Source: Tetrapyrgos nigripes
Lineage: Eukaryota; Basidiomycota; Agaricomycetes; Agaricales; Campanellaceae
Direction: 5' to 3'
DNA: 64,000 bases
Assembly (NCBI GenBank): GCA_013368315.1
Contig: JAACJM010000185.1
Span: 100,559 to 164,558, forward strand
How positions within the stretch are numbered: the stretch's first letter is position 1; each line of letters opens with the position of its first letter. Positions 2,992 to 57,007 of the stretch are shown piece after piece. Under the pieces are notes generated by a model. It searched no databases and was not told where the DNA came from. It was given only the letters and a program-made list of their open reading frames with translations. Made by a program: the position numbers and the translations under genes.

Positions 2992-4346
2992 CTGGCCAAT
3001 GGTTTACCTGAATGGGAGGAGGATAATGGATTGGTATATCACAAGGGGCGAGTCTATGTCCCCCCAAATGAAGACCTGTGGAGGGCAATAGTAGAACAAT
3101 GCCATGATGAACCATCAGCAGGACATCCAGGACTACATGGAACACTCAATTTGGTAACCTCACACTTCTGGTGGCCCACCATTCGCTCTTTTGTGGAGAA
3201 GTACATGGAGGGATGTGATAAATGTGCCAGGAAGAAGCTGCAACGTCATCTGCGAGCAGTAATCCAGCCTTTGGATGTACCCTTAGGACTCTGGGAAGAA
3301 GTTGGAGTTGACCTCATTACACAGCTACCATCCTCGCAAGGCTATGACGCAATCCTGGTCTGCACTGACCTCTATGGAAAACAAGTCCACACCCTTCCCT
3401 GCACCTCTAATATCACTGCTACTGAAGTTGCTGACCTATACTACCGAGAAATCTTTCGCCTTCATGGCCTCCCACTCTGCTTTGTATCTTGCAGCACAAA
3501 CCATGCGTTCTTTGTTGGACCGACTCAGGATCAAGTCAAGCCTTTCCTCAGGCTACCGACCCCAGACGATGGACAGACAGAACGAGCCAACCAGGAGGTG
3601 GAGAAATATCTGTGCCTCTACACCAACTACAGACAGGACGATTGGGTGGAGCACCTTCCTATGGCCGAGTTTGTTCTGAACTCCCGCACACACTCCGCAC
3701 ATGGCATGGCACCTTTTGAAGTGACTTATGGCTACCTTCCTCTATTCAACATACTGGTAGGCCGGCGCACAGGCATCCCAAACGTAGAAGACTGTCTCGA
3801 AATCCTAAGACAGGTTTGAAGAGATGCAGGATCAGCACTGCACCTGGCTAAGTGCCGGATGAAGGAAGGATATGAAAGAGGGAAACGGAAAGGACATCAG
3901 TTCAAGGTCAGGGATCATGTCTGGCTGAGTGCAGAAGACATCGACCTGAAACTTTCAAGTGACAAGTTGGGAGATCGGCAACTGGGACCATACGAGATTG
4001 TAGAGAAAATTGGAGATTTGGACTATCGGTTAGACCTCCCTGAAACTCTTAATCGCCTGCACCCAGTATTCCATGTCGACAAACTCTACCCCTACAAGGG
4101 TAATCCAGTGAACAGACTTTTACCTGAGGAACCAGAGCCAGTATACCTCAAGGGGGAGGATGAGCCTGAGTACGAAGTGGACACCCTTCTGGATAGCAGG
4201 ATATGATGGAGGCAACTGGAATACCTTGTCAAGTGGAAAGGATACGATGATGGTCACAACTCATGGGAGCCAGTTGCGAATCTCAAAAATGCGAAGTGTA
4301 AGATCACAGCATTCCACAAGAAACACCCAGAGGCAACAAAGACTTA
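2992..4346 (+). pseudogene. pol: Integrase and chromodomain of element A
   Basis: The integrase zinc finger is visible as HDEPSAGHPGLHGT near 3103 and CDKCARKK near 3214. The first catalytic Asp (VGVDLITQLP) is near 3303. The region that should hold the second Asp (SDRGPQF in copy C) is out of frame between about 3490 and 3570, so that residue is lost. The third acidic motif (DGQTERANQEVEKY) is present near 3568. The GPY/F-like segment (LGPYEIVEKIGDLDYRL) is near 3982. After a TGA at 4204 a chromodomain ([18 protein letters not shown]) runs to a stop near 4346. Chromodomains steer integration toward heterochromatin in chromoviruses. Confidence 0.9.
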
Positions 4347-4831: not shown

Positions 4832-5411
4832 CCACATCACATCCAATCACCTCTTTCAATTTCTCCTTCTTTTTACTCGTTGGATGCTCCCCTCCAGACT
4901 TGCTGCAGACTCTACATCTTCTCTCTCATCCCCACTGACTCACAATGCTGTGGTAGAGCTCCTGACTGAGCTCACAAACTCACACAGAAAGACTGATGTT
5001 GAAGTATTCATAATGTGAATGCTGCAAAGTGCAAATGAGAGACATTTGATGGAGAGCATGCTTAGGAAGCTTCAGGGCCAGCACCCAAAGAAATAGTTTG
5101 AGCCATGGTATACAGAAGAGAAACAGAGAAGAGAGAGGTTGGTGACAATGAAGTTGAAAAGCTTATGGGTCAACAGGTTTTTTGATTCAAGTTGGAGTTT
5201 GAAATGAGATGGGCAGGAGTGCAGTGTCGACCTGACTGAGAAAGAATGAGAATACAGTGGTACTTAGATGAAATATAGAGTGTTGCTTTGCAGTACCACT
5301 ATGTAGCAGTTAGGGGGCAAGGGAAAAACCAGAGACAAAGGACTGGGAAAAAACAGGAACAATTCATATAGCCACAAGTGGAAAATGGGTGTAAAGAACT
5401 CAGCCTCATTC
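4832..5411. other. Intergenic stretch, nothing recognised
   Basis: No coding frame with protein-like composition, RNA gene or clear repeat could be supported. Confidence 0.6.
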
Positions 5412-5583
5412 TTTGACCTTGTAATACACTCTGACTTACAGAAACCTTATGGAATTGTTGTGAATTTTGAGCTTTCATGTAATACTCCCATAATACATGA
5501 GGATTTACAAACTGAATGGCACTGAGTAAGTCTTTTGTAATATCACAGTATGACAGTGTATTTATGGCTATTTGCACCCAGTG
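5412..5583 (-). mobile_element. Terminal fragment of CACTGGGTGC (CACTA-type) element
   Basis: The right edge is ...TTTGCACCCAGTG (5583), the inverted terminal sequence of the element at 21836-24600. The body (TTACAGAAACCTTATGG, ACAAACTGAATGGCACTGAG) matches the fragment at 26275-26411 and, reversed, the start of the element at 17056. Only one end is present, so this is a truncated copy. Confidence 0.75.
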
Positions 5584-8500
5584 AAGGATATTGTTTGCAG
5601 GACTTTAGTTGTCAGGCTGTGTAGGCTTTTTTGTCTTTCTCTCAGTGTTTCTGCATTTCCTTTCTTCCCTACATTTGATGAGGATTTTGGTGAGTGTGGG
5701 TGGGTATGTGTATTGAAGGTATGAAGGGGGGGAGGGGAGGGGGGAAGGGAATGCTGGGGGATTTGGATACAGGGAGGTGGAAGATGGGATGGAACAGAGA
5801 GGGTGGGAACTTGTGGCCTCTGCTTATGCTGCCCATAGTACCTATGATCATGAATGACTGGGGCTGGGTCTGGTGTATCAGGAGAAAGTGGAGTGGGAGG
5901 GACAGAGAGATGGACAGACAGGGAATTAGGAAGGGGGGAAGGGTTAGCTTATGTGCATAAATCAGAGAAAGTAAAAGGCCAACAAAGGAGAGAAAGCAAA
6001 CAGGAAACAGAGCAGGGAAACACCATCTGACTGTGATAAAAATGACATTGCAAACACCAACTGAAAACCTCGCCAGAAGCCAACCCAAAACCTAAAAAAG
6101 AGCGCTCACCAATCAGTCTTCTTCCCCTCTCCCGCCTCTTGCATACATTGTCTTCCCCAGCACATACTTTAACCCTCCTTCTCCTGCAACATTATAGATG
6201 ACTCCAATACTAAACTCATTTTTCTTAGGCTTCCAGCTTCCTTCCTTGTATGCCATGTCATAAGAGAACCCATGAGAGAGCAGGCAGAGTTGTGGAGTCA
6301 CATTGGAGGGGTTTTTCTGTAAGGGAAGGGGGATTAGAGATCGCAGTAGAGATAGGTATGAAACAGGGATAGGTGATGGGGAGTAGAGCATAAGGTAAAA
6401 CAAGTTGAGTAAGCAATTGAAAGGTCAACAGAAGAAGAGGAAAAGAAGCAAGTAGTGAGAGGGAAATCATCAGGAAAACAGTCCATGGCTAATGTACCTG
6501 TAACTATCAGTAATTATTGAAAAGGGAGTAATATTCATGGAAGTACTGACAATTATTGACTTTTACTGAACAGGGGTGATAGTTAGTAAGTCATAGCTGA
6601 AATTGGGTACAATTATCTTCTGTCTAATAACTTGGCATCAAGTTATCAAGACCTTAGCACAATCATCTTAGTTCATTTTTCTGTCTTAGCATCTCACCGG
6701 GTGTTGTATTCAAGTCATATTCAAACATCAGTAATAGTCAATAAATTAGTGAACATATTATCTACAACTTAGGTGTGCTTCTGAGTCCATTTGAACCTTG
6801 CGATGGTTTTGTATTCAAGGACTACTAGTAGTTGGTAATTTACAAATAAATGTCCAAGATTTATCTGATACTGCAGCACTACTCTTCAAGACATACTGAA
6901 TCTACTACATAGTGTTAACATTACCAATCTGAGGCTGAGTCTGAGAGCAGTAGAAAGACAAATACTTTGACACACCTTTGTGTACTGTCAGTAACTGGGG
7001 CAAAGAGCCATTGCTTCGTGTGGCAAATTATGAGGCCCTTTCACATAGTCTAACTCAGGTTATGCAGAAAGGAGGGAGAATCAGTGGAAAGTGAGAGGGA
7101 AGAAGGGTGTTAAGCAGACTGATTTGACACGCTAGCATGATGTCATGGTTATTGATGTCAACAGTCCTTGGATCTGGTCCAGACTGAGTCTGGGCATTCT
7201 GGTTGTCAGGAAGGGCAAAGACCAGCTGTGGCAACAAAAAGGGGTGGGAGTTTGAGGTTGTGGTAAAATTTTCAAGGTCAACATAAGTTAACTTGGCCTT
7301 TAAGAGGCCTCATAATCAGTGCAGCACCACTGTAGCAAAGAGCCTATGGATGGGTTGGGCAGCATACACAGCTTTGAACAGGGGCATGTGGGTAAGTGTT
7401 GGACTTGGTGAAAAAGACTGCAAGTGCAGCAGAAAATCAGTAGCCAAACTGATGTTACGGCTGACCAGCACCCGTCAATATTTCGAACTCCACTCCATCA
7501 ACTGTACAGTTGACATGATTTGTTGTGACAGTTGGCTTCACTTTTCTTCTCCCTTCCATCTTTCCCTTCCTCCTTTTCCCCTCCTCTCCCATTCACCCAG
7601 TTCTAGTGTGCTGTTCAGCTACTCAAAACCAACTGGGTAGGTTTATCATAATGGGGATACACAGGAACTACTCTGTTTTCTGTTGTGTTGGATGGTCTCT
7701 TTGTGTGTCATCTTGCGCTTGAGACAGTTGGTATTCTAATTTTCGCTGTTGCTAGCTGCAGGGTGCAGGTTTTGTTAGTCTGAGACTCAGTGCAGACCTT
7801 CAATGGGCCTGGTTGGTGACCATTGCAAAAACTTGGTATGTTTTCTCAAACTTCTGTGCTGTGCTTACGGGCTGGCATTTTAGTGTTACCATGTGCTAGC
7901 AGCTCCCTCCGTTGGCTCAGTAAGTCCATACACATTGCCTATTGTTGCCACCCTGATCCTCTTCTTCAGAGCTTCATGTGTCCAAGTTTCTTCCTCTGGG
8001 GTGAGTCATTATCTTTTCACTGCTTGCAAACAATGTGCTAATGAGAGACTAGGACTTATTAACCTCCAGGCATGCTCATTGTGGTTTGGATGTGATATAA
8101 GGTAAGCTTTCCACTCACTCTTTTCAAACAACATTACTAATTTTGGATTGATACAGGGACAATCTTGAGTCATCCTCACAAATGTCTGTCTGGTCTGAAC
8201 CCTATCTGGCATCAGTCTGGCTTTCTCTCTGAAGGTTGTAGAGGCTACAGCCTGAGGGATAGAGTGTGTCATGATGTCAGTCCTGATTGTGGGTGTTGTG
8301 TCATGTTGGGTTACCATAGTCTATGTACTGTTCCTTGTCCCTAGTTTAGCTTTATGTTAATATATCTATGGTTCTGATCTTTCTTTCATGGTTTTTGAGC
8401 TGAAGATAAGTATGTCGAAAAGAATGAATAGAAAGCTATAAGGCATCCATAACCTCGCTACAACTTCTCGCAAACATGCACTAAGTTGACAATAATGCTT

Positions 8501-47219: not shown

Positions 47220-49124
47220 CACTTGCTCCATGCATGGAAAATGGCAAATGCACGAAAGGATTTCCAAAAGCTTTCCAGTCACATACAACCATGGATGAAG
47301 AGGGCTATCCTCTCTACTATAGGCCGGATGATGGACAGGAGTATGAAGTCGGATTGCACAAGATGGCTAACCATTGGATTGTCCCTTACAACCCTTACCT
47401 CTCAGTGAAGTATGGCTGCCATATCAATGTGGAGTGTGCAACATCTTTCAAGATGGTCAAATACACCATCAAGTACATCAACAAGGGACCTGACCATGGG
47501 ACATTGGCACTTCAAATTGTGAACAAGATTGAGCAGTACAAAGAAGGCCGCTACTTCTTGGCATATTTTCTACTTTGATATTCACGACCAAGAACCGAAT
47601 GTGGTGCGCCTGGCGATCCATTGTCCAGGTGAACATTTGGTTTGTTTCAACCCTGACAAATGTCCTGACATCCTCCGTCATCACATCTGTGAAGAGAAGA
47701 GCCAGCTTACAGCTTTTTTCAAAGCTAATGTGGATCCCATCCTCAGAGAGACAGCACGCCAGTATACATATCAAGAGTTCCCTCAGTATTTTGTGTGGAA
47801 GGACCAGAATAAGCAATGGAAGTTACAGGAGAGGGGTTGGGCATTAGGGCAAATGTATTATGTCCCTCCAAATGCTAGAGAACGGTTCTACTTACGCACA
47901 CTTCTGACCGTGGTCAAGGGTCCAAAGTCATGGGAGGATGTTCAGACTTATCATGGATGCACATATGACACATTCAGAGATGCATGTCTGGCTCGGGGTC
48001 TACTGGAGGATGATGGCAAATGGCGGCATGCATTGGAGGAAGCATCAGAGATGCAAACAGGTCACAGCCTTCGTCAAATGTTTGCAACCATTTTGCTGTT
48101 CTGCAGTCCTCAGCAGCCTGGTCAACTCTGGGCCAAATTTCAGGAACATATCTGCGATGACTTGCAATATCGACTACGAGTTATGGGCCATGTCAATCCA
48201 TCTGCTGAAGATGCCTACGACTATGGTCTCTTTCTCCTGGATCGTATTCTACAGGAGTCGGGACACTTCCTCCAGGAATTCCCAAGCATGCCCTTGCCCC
48301 AGCAAGATTGGGCTGCCCAGACAGACAACCCTTTCATTGCAGAGCAGCTTGACTATGACTGGGAGGCTGAGCAGCAGAAGGCTGAGCATAACCTTCAGCT
48401 CATGCAGGATAACCCAGAGCAACATGATGCTTTCGAGCAGGTGATAAAGTTGGTGGAAGACCAAGATGGCCAGTTGTTTTTTCTCAATGGCCCTGGTGGG
48501 ACTGGAAAAACCTTTGTCTACAAGACACTCTGCCATGCTGTGTGTGCCCAGAGATGGATCACTTTATGTGTTGCATCAACAGGTATCACTGCTCTTCTAT
48601 TACCTGGTGTTCGCACTGCTCATTCCATGTTCAAGATTCCCATAGATGGCCTTACTGAAGAGTTTCTCTGCAATATCAGCAAGCAGAGTGCATGTGCTGA
48701 TTTACTTTGTCAGACCCGTCTTATCATATGGGATGAGAGTCCCATGCAGAATTGTTTTGCTTTCGAAGCCCTCAATCACACATGCCAAGACATCCGAGAT
48801 GATGAGAGACCATTTGGGGGAATAACCATGGTTTTTGGCAGGGACTTTCAGCAAATCTTACCAGTCGTTGTCAAAGGTTCTCAAGAGGACATCGTATCTG
48901 CTTGCTTGAAACGATCCCAGCTATGGCCTCTTATCACTCCTCTCACCCTTACATGGAATATGCGGCTACAAAACTCAGATGAGGAAGCAACATTCACATT
49001 GTGGTTACTGGATGTTGGCCATGGGCAAGGTCTTTCACCTGGAGATAATCACATCAGGTTGCGAAATAATATGAATGTTGACTCAGAACATTCACTCATT
49101 GATTCCATCTACCCCGATCTCTCA
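47220..49124 (+). pseudogene. Helitron Rep end and helicase, first part
   Basis: This is the section of the Rep-helicase gene between the LTR element and the MULE. 47234-47578 carries the catalytic Tyr pair (Y-TIK-Y) and a frame change near 47550 shifts into 47529-49124 (FYFDIHDQEPNVVRLAIHCP, then AYDYGLFLLDRILQESG). Walker A GPGGTGKTFVYKTL and ASTGITALLLPG, Walker B and LTWNMRLQ follow. The reading frame runs into the MULE exactly at the GATCTCTCA duplication (Asp-Leu-Ser). Confidence 0.92.
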
Positions 49125-49139
49125 GGGCCACCAACTTTT

Positions 49140-49256
49140 CAAGCAACAGGTCAAGCAACAGTAAAGCAACAGTAAAGCAATGTCAAGCAACAGTAAAGCA
49201 ACACCAAGCAACAGTAAAGCAACATCAAGCAACAGTCAAGCAACAGTTGCTTGATG
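49140..49256 (+). repeat. Left subterminal array of CAAGCAACAGT-type repeats
   Basis: About ten degenerate copies of (G)TCAAGCAACA / AAAGCAACAGT immediately inside the left MULE terminus, closing with AGCAACAGTTGCTTGAT, a small palindrome. Confidence 0.9.
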
Positions 49257-49394
49257 CAAAACTTCACAAAATCACAAGAATGATTGCATCAAGGGCAACA
49301 TCACAAAGTACTGTCATGTGCGTTGGACACTTTCTACCTCTTTGCATTCTCACACCAATATTTCTGTGTCATTTATCTTTCCTTTGTGTCTTCA

Positions 49395-52300
49395 ATGTTG
49401 GTGAGTGGTATGCTGCAGTATATCCTAATGCAAATCATAGTGACATCTTCTAAAATCAGGCAAAACTCAGACAACAAATTGCTGATTGGATTGATCCTCA
49501 ACGTAAAAAACCGCCAAATATTGGCACTGAAAAGGCACCTTCTTCAATTGTTTCACCCAGCAACCACCTGTTTTTAGGTCTTTCTGCAGCACCTCTCAGC
49601 TTACCATTTAATGGTTATGCCCATCCTGAAATTCAGAATTTTCCTCAATCAAACACAGCAGATTCAGATCAAGCCCCTGGAATGAAACGCAAACTCAGTG
49701 TTGCATTTCGGGAACCTCCTGTTACTGAAAGCATCATTCAAAAGCGCACTAGGAAATCAGCCCATCATGTACCTCTCACTGGTCCTTGTTGCAACAGTCA
49801 GACCATTTACTTGGAATTTGAAGATTTACGTGAAGGATGGGATGGTTTCCCTCAGGCAAACTTTGCAATGGACATTACATGGGAGATATTCGAGGAGAAT
49901 AACGAGCTATCAGTACACTGGGCCACCAACACTGTGGGGTACAATACAAAGGACCATAGAAAGAGTAGTGTCAATGCGGAACAACTTGAAAATGGTGTAC
50001 GAACAAAACGTAAATGCCTTGGGCATATCCGGTGTGATAATTCAGACTGTGCAATTGTCAAGAGACCACATACTGGGCCACTGTCTGCCATTACTAAACA
50101 GCTTCAAAAGCTCAATGGGACATGTGAATGCAGCTCTGTTCTCAGCCACATACCCTGCCCCAATATTTCAATGATTGTGAAATGGGCTGATGGTGTACGC
50201 TACTTCAATGGAATAGAGGATCATAATCATCCCAGACTTCCTCACCAATTGCATGCGCTCAAAGGCTCACAGAAAAAATTTACAGAAATGGTTGAAGATA
50301 ATAAGGACGTAGGTCCAGCAGGCCTTGCAGCAGGGAACACTCAGTCAGGGGAAAGTGTCTCAGATATTGATCCTGTTTGGATGAATCAAGACAGGATTGC
50401 AAGGGACCGCAAAAAAATTCTTGACAAACATGAGCCCCGAATGGGTGATGATTTCATCTCTCGTTTTATCGATTTTCAGACCAATTATCCAGGATTTGTA
50501 GTCTCTGAGACTATGCTTGCTGGTATTGCTGTTGTATCTCTCCAGACTCCATTTATGGCCCAACAAGTTCATCTTGATGCAACAGCAGTTGAGGGTCCTT
50601 TCAATGGGATAGTTAGTGATGCTGCTCATGGCTGGTGGAAAATCTCAACATCCGTTCTCATTATGAGCTCTGTTTTCTGTGTCAACTTGCTTCGTTGGGT
50701 ACCTGCTCTTATCAGCTACTCAAATGGAAATACAGCTGCACATTACGAATATCATTTTCTTGCACTGATGGAGGGTATAGCAAAAGCAACAGCAGAAAGA
50801 GGAAGGATTGTGGTTGATGAAATTTTTGCCCAGGTATAGTTGTTGGTAATTACATCTAGATTAATTTCTCATCTATTCTTTCTCAGATTGTGGACTTCAG
50901 TGAGACAGAAAGAAATGGATTTATACAAGCCTTTATCCGATTCTGGCAAAGGCGTAATGACACACGCAGTGTAGAAGAGCTCAGAAATAAGGCTGCTAAA
51001 TTACTACGAGGTTGTCAGCAACATTTCAGGAGTAGCATAACTCGTGTCGGACGAATAGCAGCAATAGTGTCTGTTGACCAGCAGAAAGAATTTTCTCGCC
51101 TGGCTAAGTCACTTATTCATTAAGACAATGTTGAGTCATTTCTTGAAGTTGTCTCTTCAATCAAATCTCAATTTCCAAAATTGATCCCTTGGCTAGAATG
51201 GTGGCTGAGACCAGAGCACGCTGTGATGATTTTCGAATCACAACACATTATGGACTATTCGCTATGGGAATCACTTCCTGAAACAACAAATCCTGAGGAG
51301 GCCTTGCATTTCAGCCTCTATTCTGCAATGGGAAAGCATCACAATTTTTTCGAGGGACTAGGGAAACTCTTCAAGTGGGTGGAACAGCTATCAAAATTGT
51401 ATAATGCTGCATTAAGTGAGTACTCAATAAGTATAGATGTTGTATTTTTTGTTTTTCTCAACATTTCATTTATTTAGTTGGCAGGCCTGTGCGCTGGGGA
51501 AAGGCACCATTACTGAAGCGCCAAGAAATTAAAGCCGAAATCCACCAGACAAAGAAATCACGGACAGCATCTGCAATTGCCGCTCGGAACAAACGCTACC
51601 ACAATGATGGACGACCACTGGACGATAACCGCCTTCTCAAAGTCACTCACAGGAAACAGCAAAAGCAACGCACTGTTACAAAACTGGAAAAGAGAAGGAG
51701 AGAACAAGTCTCACCATCAGAGTTATCAGATATTTCAAGAGAGTTGAATTCAGGCAGTGATGACGGAGAGTATTCAGAACAGCATGGAATCATTGAGGGT
51801 TTTGCTACTGAAGATAAGTCTGATGCAGTTGAAGCAATGCATACATGGGCTATCTCACAGGGTAAAGTGGTTGCTTCCTCAAAATCAGAGGGAAATTCAA
51901 ATGGAATTAGCACGGCAAAATCTCAACCTGATATTTTAGGGAATTATCCAACCAGTGGGTCAACTAAGGCCACTCTTGGAGAAGGAACCATTCAGACACA
52001 GAATGGAAAGAAGCGCCTACTTCTTTATCCAAAAGCGTCCTCATTTCAGTCATACAAGTGGTCTCGCAACTCTTGCTGGGCTGATACATCATTTGAGTTA
52101 TTATTTTGGGCATTCAATTTTGACTGGAATGTGGTTGAGAATCTGTTTGAAAGCTATGACAATCACCCATTTGGGCCAGTTCTCAAATCACTCCAGGCAA
52201 GGCGAATTCTGATGGAGAATACAAGGCGAGGTCCCGATATGACTGTTGAGTTAATGAAATACAGAGATGAGACATGTATTTATATCAAACAGAAGGAATA

Positions 52301-54852
52301 TGGAATGAATGTTGCTGCTTATGAATGGGAAAGTGATATGGTAAGTTATCAATTATTAGGAATAGTGTGTGTGTGCTGACTCGGATTTCTGTAATAGGTC
52401 TGGCTCAATACCTGTTTTGATATCAATGACAAGTTACGCTGTGGCAAATTTCAGAGATCCAAAAGACTCACACTCACAGATAGAGATTTAAGCCGGTTCT
52501 TTTGCTTGCAAGTAATCAAGATTCAACAGTGCATTCCTGAAAACGCTGCTGGAAAGCGAAGCATGCCAACACACATGCAAATTACTCCACCTCATCCAGT
52601 TTGTCTTCGAACCACCCATAGACCCACTGAGGATGAATACAAGCAATGCCAGGGGAATATTCAAAAGTGGCTGCAATTAATGACTAGTGGAAGCCAGAAT
52701 GCTTCATTTGCTCCTGACTGCTGGCGTCAATGCGATGGAATAGGATATTGTTCTGGAATAAAATCAGTATTCAACTTGTGTATGAATCTTCCTGAATACT
52801 TGATTTTTTCTATGGATACAGACCAGAAAGCATGGAATTTCCCTCGAACTTTATATCCAAAATCTGGGACACAAGCCAAGGATAAGAACTGTATCTACGA
52901 CATGACGGGCCGTGCTTTCATGAATAGTTCCCATTATGTGTGTAGAGTTGTCGTACCTATGGATACACCTCAAGGAAAGCCCGCAGTATTTTTCTATGAT
53001 GGGATGCATGAAGATGGAAAGGCATTCAGGGAGAATAAGTCACTTGATGGGCTTCTTTCAGGAGTCTCACCGGAGCTACCTGCCAAGTATCAAGAGAAGG
53101 GGTACAATACTTGTACTGTTATTTATCATCTCAGAGGTGGAGCCCAAGCTCAGGAATGGTTCACAAAAGGCCAGGTAGAGTATGCTGCAAAGAAATTCAA
53201 TTTAGAGTTCAGACAAGACATCACTCCAGTTACCCTTCTTGTTTCTAAAGCAGAATTAAAACTCAAAGACTTTCATAGAACACCTTGGGAAGGAAATCCA
53301 TGGTTCAGTTTGCCAACAATTAAATACCTGACCAGTTCTTTGATCCCAACCATAGAATATGATAATTCTGCAAATGATACATTGGAAGCATCAACTGCCA
53401 TGGGAGCGGAGAATTCACAAGCTCCAGAAGAGGTTCATGAGTCTGAAAACAAATTTTTCTCCACAGACAATTTAGTTCCCAGGGCAGAGTCAAATGCTAT
53501 CTCTGACATCAGCATACCAGAAGGAAATCACAGGGATGAAGATGCTGAAGCAGTTGTTGATGAGCTCATGCGTGATCTGGAAATGATTGATGTGGACCAA
53601 GACAGCATGAATGATGAGAAGCAAGAGGTAGAGGACTTTCAATATTTAACTGGTGTGAGAGAGAATTTCGAGAGTATGAAGCATCTATGGCAACATGAGG
53701 TATGTGTATTGACTTTCTGTCTTTCCAAGTTATTATTTTCTGATCAAGGAAATCACGCTCTAGATCAAAGACATGCAGAAGGAAATGGAGGATGGAATCA
53801 AGTTTCTCCTACGCTCTATCAAGATTGAGCAGGAAGACGTGACCAATATTTTCACTGGTAGAATCACTCCCCGAATACTGGATGGGTACTTTCAGTGCTA
53901 TCAGGAGCCCCTGAATATTACTGGCATATATGTCTGTGATACTATCAATTACGATGATCTCGAAAAGCTGATTCTGAAAAGAGGACAGCAGAGAGAAGCA
54001 ATGATTTGTGAACTTTTCGAAAAATACAAGGTAACATTTTGATGATCAGTGTCAGAATACTAAGCTTACTTAATTGTTAAAGATTGACTGGTCAAATCAT
54101 CGTTTGACTCTGCTTATAGTCCCAATATTCTTCAACAATCATCTGATCACAGCAATTGTTGATTTTGGACAGATGATGATAAGGGTGTATGATATTTCTT
54201 CTGAGCAGCACAGTCATACTACTACACCCTGGAGAGATGGCCCATATACTTGTATATTTCAGGTATTCATGATTTCTGCTTCGTATTTTATAAAATCAAA
54301 CATTTTGATTGCAGGTAATTGGAAACCTGATTAATCTTCATCAGCCACTGCATAATTTGAAGCTATTCAAAAAATGGGATCTAAAATGCTGTGCAGAGGT
54401 GAGTACAGTAGAATACTCTTACAAACTTTTTTATTAATATACTCGATTTACAGTACCAGCCTCAGGACAGGAATCTCAGCCAAAGTGGTCTTTATGTGTT
54501 TGGCATTATTTTGCTAGTATTTTGGGGAAAATTTCAGAATAATCAGTATTTTAGAGATATTCTGAAACCAAAGATGCTAGTGCTGCTAGCAGCAGAAATT
54601 ATCCTTACATTTTATGAGCATGCCTACAAAGTTCCCTATATGGATGTGGAATCCGAAACTAGTGAGCATCCAAGGTAAGGCTCATGATTCATGTTTGGAA
54701 CTGATGCTCATATTGCCTAGAACGGCAAGTCCCTTCCGTCAAAGCAAGCGACTGCAGGAAAAAAGAACAGGTAAGCAAATAACCTATGTCCACACTGAGA
54801 ATGACACTCAGATGCAAATATGAAACTAGCATTCAAGAATCACAAAGATTAA
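49395..54852 (+). CDS. MULE transposase fused to USP-like and Ulp1-like proteases, 11 exons
   Basis: Predicted exons: 49395-49400, 49460-50833, 50887-51415, 51478-52340, 52398-53699, 53764-54030, 54083-54262, 54315-54398, 54454-54674, 54721-54770, 54830-54852; every GT-AG join keeps frame, giving 1,633 codons with the stop. One in-frame TAA (51121-51123) breaks exon 3. Residues ~170-270 hold a GCM/WRKY-GCM-type Cys-His cluster (RKCLGHIRCDNSDC, CECSSVLSHIPC, DHNHPRLPHQLH). Residues ~375-520 are the DDE-like transposase core (LDATAVEG, VSDAAHGWW, RWVPALISYSNG, VVDFSETER). Next comes a basic linker, then a USP-like module with Cys box NSCWADTSFELLFWA (C836) and His box SSHYVCRVVVP...FFYDGM (H1103). 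Last is a Ulp1-like module with H1467, D1484 and Ser1546 where Cys is expected. It probably mobilises the MULE; protease roles are inferred. Confidence 0.8.
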
Positions 54853-55070
54853 ACAAGTAAGTGCTAACTATTGAGTTGTCACTGACTGAATCTTTGACAA
54901 GAGTATTGGTGTAACAGTGAAACTCCAAGGAATTGATCAAGTTGGGAAAAGGTTCAATTATTGGAAGACTGTAGATAGTGATGAATCTTGAGTAGTGTAT
55001 ATAGCAGAATAGAATTGTTCATTAACAGCAACTCAACACCAATAGGTGAAGCAAAAGTCAAGCAACACTT
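54853..55070. other. 3' region of the MULE gene
   Basis: AT-rich, without coding potential; leads into the right repeat array. A clear AATAAA polyadenylation signal was not found. Confidence 0.4.
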
Positions 55071-55800
55071 CTCATAGGTAAGGCAACAGTCAGGCAACAG
55101 TCAGGCAACGGTCAAGCAATAGTCAAGCAACGTCAAGCAACAGTCAAGCAACGTCAAGCAACATCAAGCAATGTCAAGCAACATCAAGCAACAGTCAAGC
55201 AACAGTCAAGCAACAGTCAAGCAACGTCAAGCAACAGTCAAGCAACAGTCAAGCAACAGTCAAGCAACAGTCAAGCAACAGTCAAGCAACAGTCAAGCAA
55301 CAGTCAAGCAACAGTCAAGCAAAGTCAACAGTCAAGCAACAGTCAAGCAACAGTCAAGCAACAGTCAAGCAACAGTCAAGCAACAGTCAAGCAACAGTCA
55401 AGCAACAGTCAAGCAACAGTCAAGCAACGACAAGCAACAGTCAAGCAACAGTCAAGCAACAGTCAAGCAACAGTCAAGCAACAGTCAAGCAACAGTCAAG
55501 CAACAGTCAAGCAACAGTCAAGCAACGACAAGCAACAGTCAAGCAACAGTCAAGCAACAGTCAAGCAACAGTCAAGCAACAGTCAAGCAACAGTCAAGCA
55601 ACGTCAAGCAACAGTCAAGCAACAGTCAAGCAACGGTCAAGCAACAGTCAAGCAACAGTCAAGCAACATCAAGCAACATCAAGCAACATCAAACAACATC
55701 AAGCAACATCAAGCAACATCAAGCAACATCAAACAACATCAAGCAACATCAAGCAACAGTCAAGCAATGTCAAGCAACACTTAAGGGTAAGTTAAGCAAC
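55071..55800 (+). repeat. Main right array of the 11-bp repeat GTCAAGCAACA
   Basis: Several dozen near-perfect head-to-tail copies of GTCAAGCAACA, with 8-9 bp variants (GTCAAGCAAC, ATCAAGCAAC, GACAAGCAAC). The same strand orientation as the left array, so the arrays are direct, not inverted, relative to each other. The array makes a spurious 256-codon frame (SNSQATVKQQ repeats). Confidence 0.97.
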
Positions 55801-56200
55801 AGTATGAATAGAATATGGGTCAACAAGCTACCACTTGAGATATCACTCAAGGTACCCTCAAGCTATCATCTCAAAGAGACACATATTGCTCACTGCTCAG
55901 ACATACTTAGCATCCTCATAGTTCTCAAACTAGTTGGATGAATGTAACAATAAATTGATTTTTTCCGACTTTTTTTTTTTTCTACCTTTACAATGATAAA
56001 AAGTTTGTACTTGATTGAGTAGAGGCTAAACCAATTTGTAATGAAGAAATGGTATGTATAATATCTTAATGAATGGCCCATTCAATGTGAGTAATTTGTT
56101 GTAAAATGAAGTGTAGTGAAGTTGACTAGACTAGGACAAGCACAGCCACATCCAAAGTAGAAAGTCAAGCTATCCTAAAACTACTCTCAAGTGGGTTACA
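55801..56200. other. Non-repetitive spacer inside the MULE right end
   Basis: About 400 bp of AT-rich DNA splitting the right array into a main and a terminal block. No gene seen. Confidence 0.5.
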
Positions 56201-56204
56201 CTCA

Positions 56205-56320
56205 AGCAACTTCCAAGCAACCTTCAAGCAGGGCCAAGCAACAGTCAAGCAACAGTCAAGCAACAGTCAAGCAACGTCAAGCAACAGTCAAGCAACTGTT
56301 GCTTGACCTGTTGCTTGAAA
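56205..56320 (+). repeat. Terminal right array of the 11-bp repeat and inverted terminus
   Basis: Further CAAGCAAC copies ending in AGTCAAGCAACTGTTGCTTGACC, where orientation flips to form the right terminal inverted repeat. Confidence 0.9.
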
Positions 56321-56341
56321 AGTCAGATGCCCGATCTCTCA

Positions 56342-57007
56342 TCCTTACCCACTGCTCCTCCTCCAGAATACTTCATGGAATGTGCTATTCTTGCACCTCA
56401 CAACTCTGATGTGGACCAAACTAATTGGGAGCTCCTTGATCGTCTACCTGGGGAAGAGCACATATACTTGAGTGCTGATTCTGTTGTCAAGGAAGCTGGG
56501 GCAGATGGCAGCAATGATCCAATTCCTCCTGAAGTTCTCTGTTTGCTTGATGCTTCTGGACTTCTGCCAGGTGAGCTACATTTGAAACCAGGCTGTCCAC
56601 TCATCCTTTTGCAAAACCTCACCCCTGCATGTGGCCTCTGTAATGGCACACGAATGGTCCTAATATGGAGCACTGACCATGTCCTTGAAGTCAAAATTCT
56701 CAGGGGTGATCATCACTGTGAAATTGCACTCATTCCTTGCATATCACTCATTCCGTCTGCTAAAAACACTGACTTTACCTTTGTGTTGAAGCGCCAGCAT
56801 GCTTTTGCCATGACAATCAATAAATCACAAGGGCAGTCACTCAAGTATGTTGGGGTAGATCTCAGGGTACCGGTCTTTATGCATGGTCAGTTGTACGTTG
56901 CTTTTTCAAGGTGCACTTCAGGGAATCGCATCAAAGTTCTGCTTCCAGATGATGAGCCTTTGTGTCAGACGCCCAATGTAGTATTTCCAGAAGTGTTGGT
57001 GGATTAG
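56342..57007 (+). pseudogene. Helitron helicase, last part
   Basis: Resumes the helicase frame after the MULE (SLPTAPPPEYFMECAILAPH). Contains GCPLILLQNLTPACGLCNGTR, KRQHAFAMTINKSQGQS and HGQLYVAFSRCTSGN, which are the late PIF1/RecD-type helicase motifs, and stops at 57005-57007. This part has no internal stop. Confidence 0.93.

Follow-up and report, generated by a model that had tools for sequence, protein, structure and literature searches.

A probable Mutator-like DNA transposon of Tetrapyrgos nigripes whose predicted transposase carries a USP-fold module and a Ulp1-like tail without the catalytic cysteine

The element and its gene

In this study, we revisited a 64,000-nucleotide stretch of contig JAACJM010000185.1 of the fungus Tetrapyrgos nigripes, hereafter the window (contig C181), which contains a 7,208 bp DNA element with a long gene for a predicted transposase. 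An earlier note on this DNA had described an 11-exon gene, in one frame save for a single TAA, inside a 7.2-kb element with a 9-bp target-site duplication (TSD), and both descriptions are borne out by the features listed below. The TSD GATCTCTCA is present on both sides, and joining the flanks with one copy of it gives a single open helicase frame, the insertion host being a PIF1-like helicase frame (Pfam PIF1 E=3e-65). TSDs of Mutator-like elements (MULEs) are 8-11 bp long, mostly 9 bp, and both in its TSD and in its terminal inverted repeats (TIRs) the window element is of this type.

49116..49124, no strand: left TSD GATCTCTCA
49125..56332, plus strand: whole element, 7,208 bp, GGGC...GCCC ends
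49125..49162, plus strand: left TIR, 34/38 bases matching the right end
49139..49247, plus strand: 11-bp tandem array TCAAGCAACAG, about 10 copies
49395..49400, plus strand: exon 1, ATG followed by a single codon
49460..50833, plus strand: exon 2, containing the GCM zinc domain and the initial part of the DDE-like core (Asp 389)
50015..50230, plus strand: GCM-type zinc cluster, CLGHIRC to HNH, residues 188-259
50887..51415, plus strand: exon 3, continuation of the DDE-like core (Asp 463, GCQQH, TTNPEE); D-D-C..H-E read by eye
51121..51123, plus strand: in-frame TAA, codon 539, the only internal stop of the gene
51478..52340, plus strand: exon 4, linker and USP Cys box (NSCWAD, Cys 836)
52398..53699, plus strand: exon 5, remaining USP module (His 1103, Asp 1125), then the initial conserved block of the Ulp1-like tail
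53764..54030, plus strand: exon 6, Ulp1-like tail
54083..54262, plus strand: exon 7, Ulp1-like tail, His 1467, Asp 1484
54315..54398, plus strand: exon 8, Ulp1-like tail
54454..54674, plus strand: exon 9, Ulp1-like tail, Ser 1546 where the catalytic Cys is expected
54721..54770, plus strand: exon 10, RQSKRLQ basic motif
54812..54852, plus strand: exon 11, including the stop codon
55083..55779, plus strand: 11-bp tandem array, about 65 copies
56198..56296, plus strand: 11-bp tandem array, about 9 copies
56295..56332, minus strand: right TIR, 34/38 bases identical, counted on both ends
56333..56341, no strand: right TSD GATCTCTCA

The gene has 1,638 codons and 10 introns, all of them GT-AG, and the TAA at codon 539 is missing from all five other copies readable there. 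The arrangement of the two-codon exon 1 (ATG-YTG/GT) is also seen by eye in one kin element, on C29. In exon 4 the transposase part passes into the USP Cys box, and in exon 5 the His/Asp part of the USP module passes into the first block of the tail, which supports a single reading frame in which a predicted USP-fold module and a Ulp1-like module are joined to a GCM/DDE transposase. It has to be considered whether the locus instead contains two or more genes, with a USP/Ulp1 gene under its own promoter beside that for the transposase. The joining of the exons is predicted; however, exons 4 and 5 span the two module borders in one frame, and the predicted gene models P0001 and P0003 of other fungi likewise join GCM, DDE and USP, so that we consider separate genes improbable. 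When single window exons were searched with Pfam no module was matched, and profiles and relatives were needed to reveal the modules.

A basic RRSKR-like motif near the C terminus is common to the four rows with a Ulp1-like tail and the C88 protein, a member of a sister branch described below; it is possibly a nuclear localisation or docking signal.

Transposase, USP module and Ulp1-like tail

By eye, the residues D, D and C-x2-H of the DDE-like core are invariant in 5/5 rows, and an E motif is seen in the four rows that reach it. A genome search with the MULE model gave 29 matches, none of which lies by coordinates at loci of this element clan, and the place of the core in Mutator rests on the TSD, the TIRs and the motif read by eye. 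A transposase profile of five rows found mouse GCM1 (1odh, E=4.2e-9), while two single transposase sequences searched alone did not reach GCM1; Pfam GCM was matched by 1/5 rows (1.6e-4), and the four Cys and the HxH of the cluster are invariant in 5/5 rows. By profile similarity and zinc ligands, the predicted domain belongs to the GCM type. Membership in the KDZ elements was considered and rejected in view of the TSD length and the GCM domain. The words MULE, Mutator, Ulp1, ubiquitin, PHD and GCM do not occur in PMC12730594.

The catalytic triad of the USP module (Cys, His, Asp/Asn) is invariant in 8/8 modules including that of the window. The USP fold was found in the predicted structure of the module of a relative, P0001, the window exons being rows of its alignment. 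The predicted fold is thus that of Peptidase C19; the structure matches are tied among USPs, with about 13% identity in those rows. The full fold and the triad are common to the clan module and the USP family (C19, including USPL1, C98); the differences are this identity and scores below the Pfam cut-offs. The only relevant Pfam matches came from one of the eight modules (P0007), namely Peptidase_C98 (USPL1, a SUMO isopeptidase) at E=3.7e-4 and UCH at E=3.9e-3, both below curated cut-offs. Pfam matches on the genome numbered 0 for C98, 19 for C48 and 31 for UCH, and by coordinates 0/50 lie in elements of this clan. We suggest that the module is a putative USP isopeptidase with an intact active site, whose substrate would be ubiquitin or possibly SUMO.

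This raises the alternative that the module is a USPL1-type SUMO isopeptidase and the tail a SUMO docking site, in which case the whole C-terminal half would work on SUMO. The better score of Peptidase_C98 than of UCH for the P0007 module points in this direction, as do the USPL1 structure 7zju among the Foldseek matches (rank 42, E 7.7e-9) and a CWLD-like Cys box, which we take to resemble that of USPL1. According to PMC8983731, Phe after the catalytic His is a trait of USPL1 and Tyr the ubiquitin-type residue. Phe is found at this position in 4/8 modules; however, Tyr is present in the window, C21, P0003 and P0007, C98 was matched below its cut-off by only that one module, and the structure rows are tied among USPs. 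We therefore regard a USPL1-type function as a doubtful though not negligible alternative to a ubiquitin-directed USP.

For the tail, a four-row profile found SENP1 (2xph, E=2.5e-4), with seven distinct SENP1 sequences below 1e-3, whereas the matches following SENP1, to Rab-23, were at 0.18 and above; the SENP1 match presumably spans the catalytic His and Asp. The Pfam C48 model gave E=0.23 in 1/4 rows, and a protein database search with the tail alignment found the tail in none of 3,001 candidates. The exons encoding the tail are short and lie apart from one another in the DNA. The His is kept in 4/4 rows and the Asp in two (window and C21), the Asp being lost in C138 and C234, while the Cys is present in 0/4. 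At all 20 readable tail sites (of 21), in four subfamilies, Ser replaces the catalytic Cys. Thus by sequence the tail is similar to Ulp1/SENP (C48), sharing the SENP1 profile match and the His, but differs from it in having Ser for Cys and, in two of four subfamilies, no Asp.

Simple counts between the window and C21 gave nonsynonymous (pN) and synonymous (pS) differences of 0.34 and 0.73 for the tail and 0.22 and 0.80 for the USP part; near-identical pairs are uninformative for these measures. By these counts both the USP part and the tail evolve under constraint, the tail without the usual catalysis. An apparent Ulp1 region in C6 passes into repeat DNA and was left aside, and the 'Ulp1' divergence rows for C6 and C88 are void.

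All four parts named in the earlier note are present, from the GCM cluster and the DDE-like core to the USP-like and the Ulp1-like module, and a USP-fold and a Ulp1-like module do share one predicted frame; its proposal of two isopeptidase modules, a deubiquitinase and a deSUMOylase on one polypeptide, is not supported for the second of them, which has the His but not the nucleophile. That both modules are active would fit the USP fold and the SENP1-like tail; with Ser for Cys at 20/20 readable sites and the Asp also lost in two of four rows (C138 and C234), this must be regarded as most improbable.

Copies, kin and exchangeable C-terminal parts

The genome searched was that of T. nigripes (Agaricales, Campanellaceae; 98.46 Mb, 587 contigs). 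With a DNA query of 1,476 bp, 121 matches were listed, among them seven close copies including the window, with 96-100% identity over nearly all of the query, and seven further loci with partial matches at about 68-77%; most of the remaining matches are to the repeat-rich end. By eye, a TSD of 9-10 bp is present in 5/7 close copies (with 1 mismatch in 9 for C18) and absent in C169 and C10. The right flank of C169 is that of the window, and this copy has therefore arisen by recombination or by chimeric assembly. Over the aligned columns of the gene, identity to the window is 0.995 for C169 and C257, 0.985 for C10, 0.981 for C18 and 0.955 for C349, the values for C10 and C349 resting on fewer columns and that for the rearranged copy C189 not being meaningful. 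In this last copy (L011), two arrays of 9-bp units were seen, at 3607-4070 (~52 copies) and 5409-7679 (~253 copies).

Exon 5 gave 47 matches in the genome and exon 9 gave 22, at 21 places (C10 is split in two). By coordinates, an exon-5 match lies on the same strand within 3 kb at 13/21 tail places, namely C181 (window), C169, C257, C18, C21, C113, C75, C138, C234, C23, C73, C35 and C98. Of the remaining eight, four have lost the USP part (C10, C22, C29, C346) and C412 is at a contig end; at C18:368217, C86 and C169:6218, only the tail region was read. In four divergent loci (L028, L029, L030, L033) the transposase part lies upstream in the same order (tblastn). The combination of USP and tail is not unique to the window copy. 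The USP module itself recurs in T. nigripes, Rhodocollybia butyracea, Gloeophyllum trabeum and one ENA contig. Three kin elements without the USP part, L016 (C29), L020 (C22) and L021 (C346), retain the last tail exon; the GCM/DDE part of L016 is free of stops, and L020 and L021 retain just its first 260-290 residues.

These derivatives, together with the capture of gene pieces by plant elements reported in PMC13317346, could be taken to mean that the extra modules were picked up from the host and serve no function. The few amino-acid changes against near-saturated synonymous changes (window versus C6 and C21), the recurrence of the USP module in three named fungi and one ENA contig, and the order of USP and tail exons kept at 13 loci all speak against this explanation, which is already disfavoured and in our view quite unlikely.

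In the C88-type loci and C201, a PHD finger follows the USP module. The 11 C88-type copies with a USP module are C88, C149, C6, C74, C105, C187, C293, C59, C91, C151 and C563. PHD was matched in 3/3 rows tested (P0001, P0002 and P0003; best Pfam 1.4e-4, best PDB 3.1e-4), P0002 being a clan protein of T. nigripes (D9758_017577), and the PHD type also exists in Gloeophyllum trabeum (P0001) and Rhodocollybia butyracea (P0003, and P0004-P0006 by Pfam). P0007 (ENA, 1,140 aa) stops shortly after the USP module. Along the gene, pS between C138 (L030) and C75 (L029) falls from 0.76 at the transposase end, measured over the 180 codons of the partial C75 locus, to 0.30 in the USP part and 0.035 in the tail, and between C138 and C234 the values are 0.74, 0.78 and 0.36. 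Because of these sharp steps in synonymous divergence, we suggest that C-terminal parts may have been exchanged or converted between element lineages.

Outside the gene, Tandem Repeats Finder located arrays of 11-bp repeats in three families, the units being TCAAGCAACAG in the window family, TCAAGCTACCC-like in the 71% kin and CATGCGGGTAC in the C88 type. According to PMC8859918, ATGCGGGT is the optimal GCM1/2 site; the octamer is also in a primer in PMC5114015, on which we do not rely. ATGCGGGT occurs five times in L043 (0.07 expected). This match was noticed post hoc, three array families having been read, and its chance per 11-bp unit on either strand is ~22/65536. A paired octamer pattern had 335 matches genome-wide, overlapping ones counted, versus 3 for the reversed pattern, and end-specific patterns with up to 1 mismatch were found at 42 and 19 places, with 0 for the controls. 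Both end patterns bracket 10/11 C88-type USP copies, about 7.37 kb apart; the eleventh, C563, begins at a contig end and has the single side possible there. In C59 the two sides are inverted arrays. Short elements (~0.7 kb), bounded on either side by inverted arrays of the GCM octamer, were observed at C2:1306021-1306715 and, in similar form, on C5, C25, C29, C33, C44, C60 and C63; these pairs are likely non-autonomous derivatives of the GCM-USP-PHD element.

Known systems and a possible mechanism

Plant MULEs with Ulp1 have been described as KIU/Kaonashi in VANDAL and in melon, rice and grapevine, and Mutator elements with Ulp1 in hydra and lancelet (PMC13317346, PMC2836005, PMC10398659, PMC5735166). 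Like the window element, these are of Mutator type with a C48-like domain; however, KIU of Arabidopsis is a non-TIR MULE with Ulp1 on one of three genes, whereas the window element has TIRs, and its Ulp1-like module forms the tail of the transposase, has no catalytic Cys and is preceded by an intact USP module. According to PMC2836005, Ginger1 transposons have OTU, Ulp1 or Ulp1 and PHD tails, and T. vaginalis has a protein with transposase_11 and Peptidase C19. These likewise bear a C-terminal isopeptidase or PHD on a transposase, one of them USP-type (C19), but belong to other transposase superfamilies (Gypsy-integrase type and transposase_11), and the sections seen mention neither a GCM domain nor a protein with both USP and Ulp1. 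No fungal MULE with USP, or with USP and Ulp1, was found among the titles and abstract openings listed from open-licence literature. With animal GCM transcription factors the clan shares, by profile, the DNA-binding domain and, in the sister-branch arrays, the octamer; here, in contrast, the GCM domain sits in a transposase.

We consider it slightly more probable than not that the window holds a young copy of a Mutator-like DNA transposon, damaged by one stop, whose transposase bears its own isopeptidase. Several results weigh against this reading or parts of it. None of the seven copies is intact, each having its own lesions. The DDE-like core has no match to any Pfam MULE model, including PF10551, and hhalign of the core against 3/29 MULE segments gave nothing, the profiles being shallow and one perhaps in the wrong frame. 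The USP profile, searched by sequence against the PDB, found no USP, and a first structure prediction from a four-row alignment had a predicted local distance difference test (pLDDT) score of 32 and was discarded. Between C138 and C234 the tail is less constrained (pN 0.19/pS 0.36, simple counts). In a fourth family, L042 (C113), neither an 11-bp array nor the octamer is present in the flanking DNA covered (0.3 kb on the 5' side, 1.5 kb on the 3' side), and ATGCGGGT has no exact match in the window; as the unit of the window family is not ATGCGGGT, binding of GCM to the window arrays is proposed by analogy.

On this reading, the GCM domain would bind the phased 11-bp arrays near the element ends and the DDE core would cut and join these ends. 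The USP module may then strip ubiquitin, or possibly SUMO, off the transposase itself or, at the ends to which it is bound, off proteins of chromatin and repair; silencing or degradation would thereby be reversed at the site that the protein occupies. The dead Ulp1 fold might be retained for docking, plausibly on SUMO-coated repressed chromatin, with its slot filled by the PHD finger in the sister branch; that one slot can hold either a dead Ulp1 fold or a PHD finger points towards docking on chromatin. Array binding by GCM, catalysis, substrate and docking are all steps that we infer. There are precedents in the anti-silencing proteins of VANDAL, which recognise short motifs in the non-coding DNA of the elements that encode them and undo silencing (PMC13317346), and in the isopeptidase tails of Ginger and other transposases (PMC2836005).

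More tentatively, and as an idea that we regard as possible rather than probable, the protein may be a DNA-addressed chromatin eraser, in which GCM reads the phased 11-bp arrays, USP removes a ubiquitin-like mark and docking is left to an exchangeable reader, with dead Ulp1 recognising SUMO or PHD recognising histone tails. In that case the octamer known from GCM regulators in animal development would have begun as the code that marks the ends of a clan of transposons, and would have persisted from the time when those regulators evolved out of such transposases. Because the arrays of the sister elements match the animal octamer, the origin of the DNA specificity of GCM regulators can be tested directly. 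The clan would be one case of a transposase that keeps an isopeptidase module with an intact active site across several divergent families, and the long-standing question of why Ulp1, OTU or USP domains are found on transposons becomes testable on one protein by a single cysteine change.

Over the window (1-64000) there were no tRNA genes and no Rfam matches at gathering scores. The Pif1-like helicase frame split by the element lies at 47523-49124 and 56342-57007 of the window, and is perhaps that of a Helitron.
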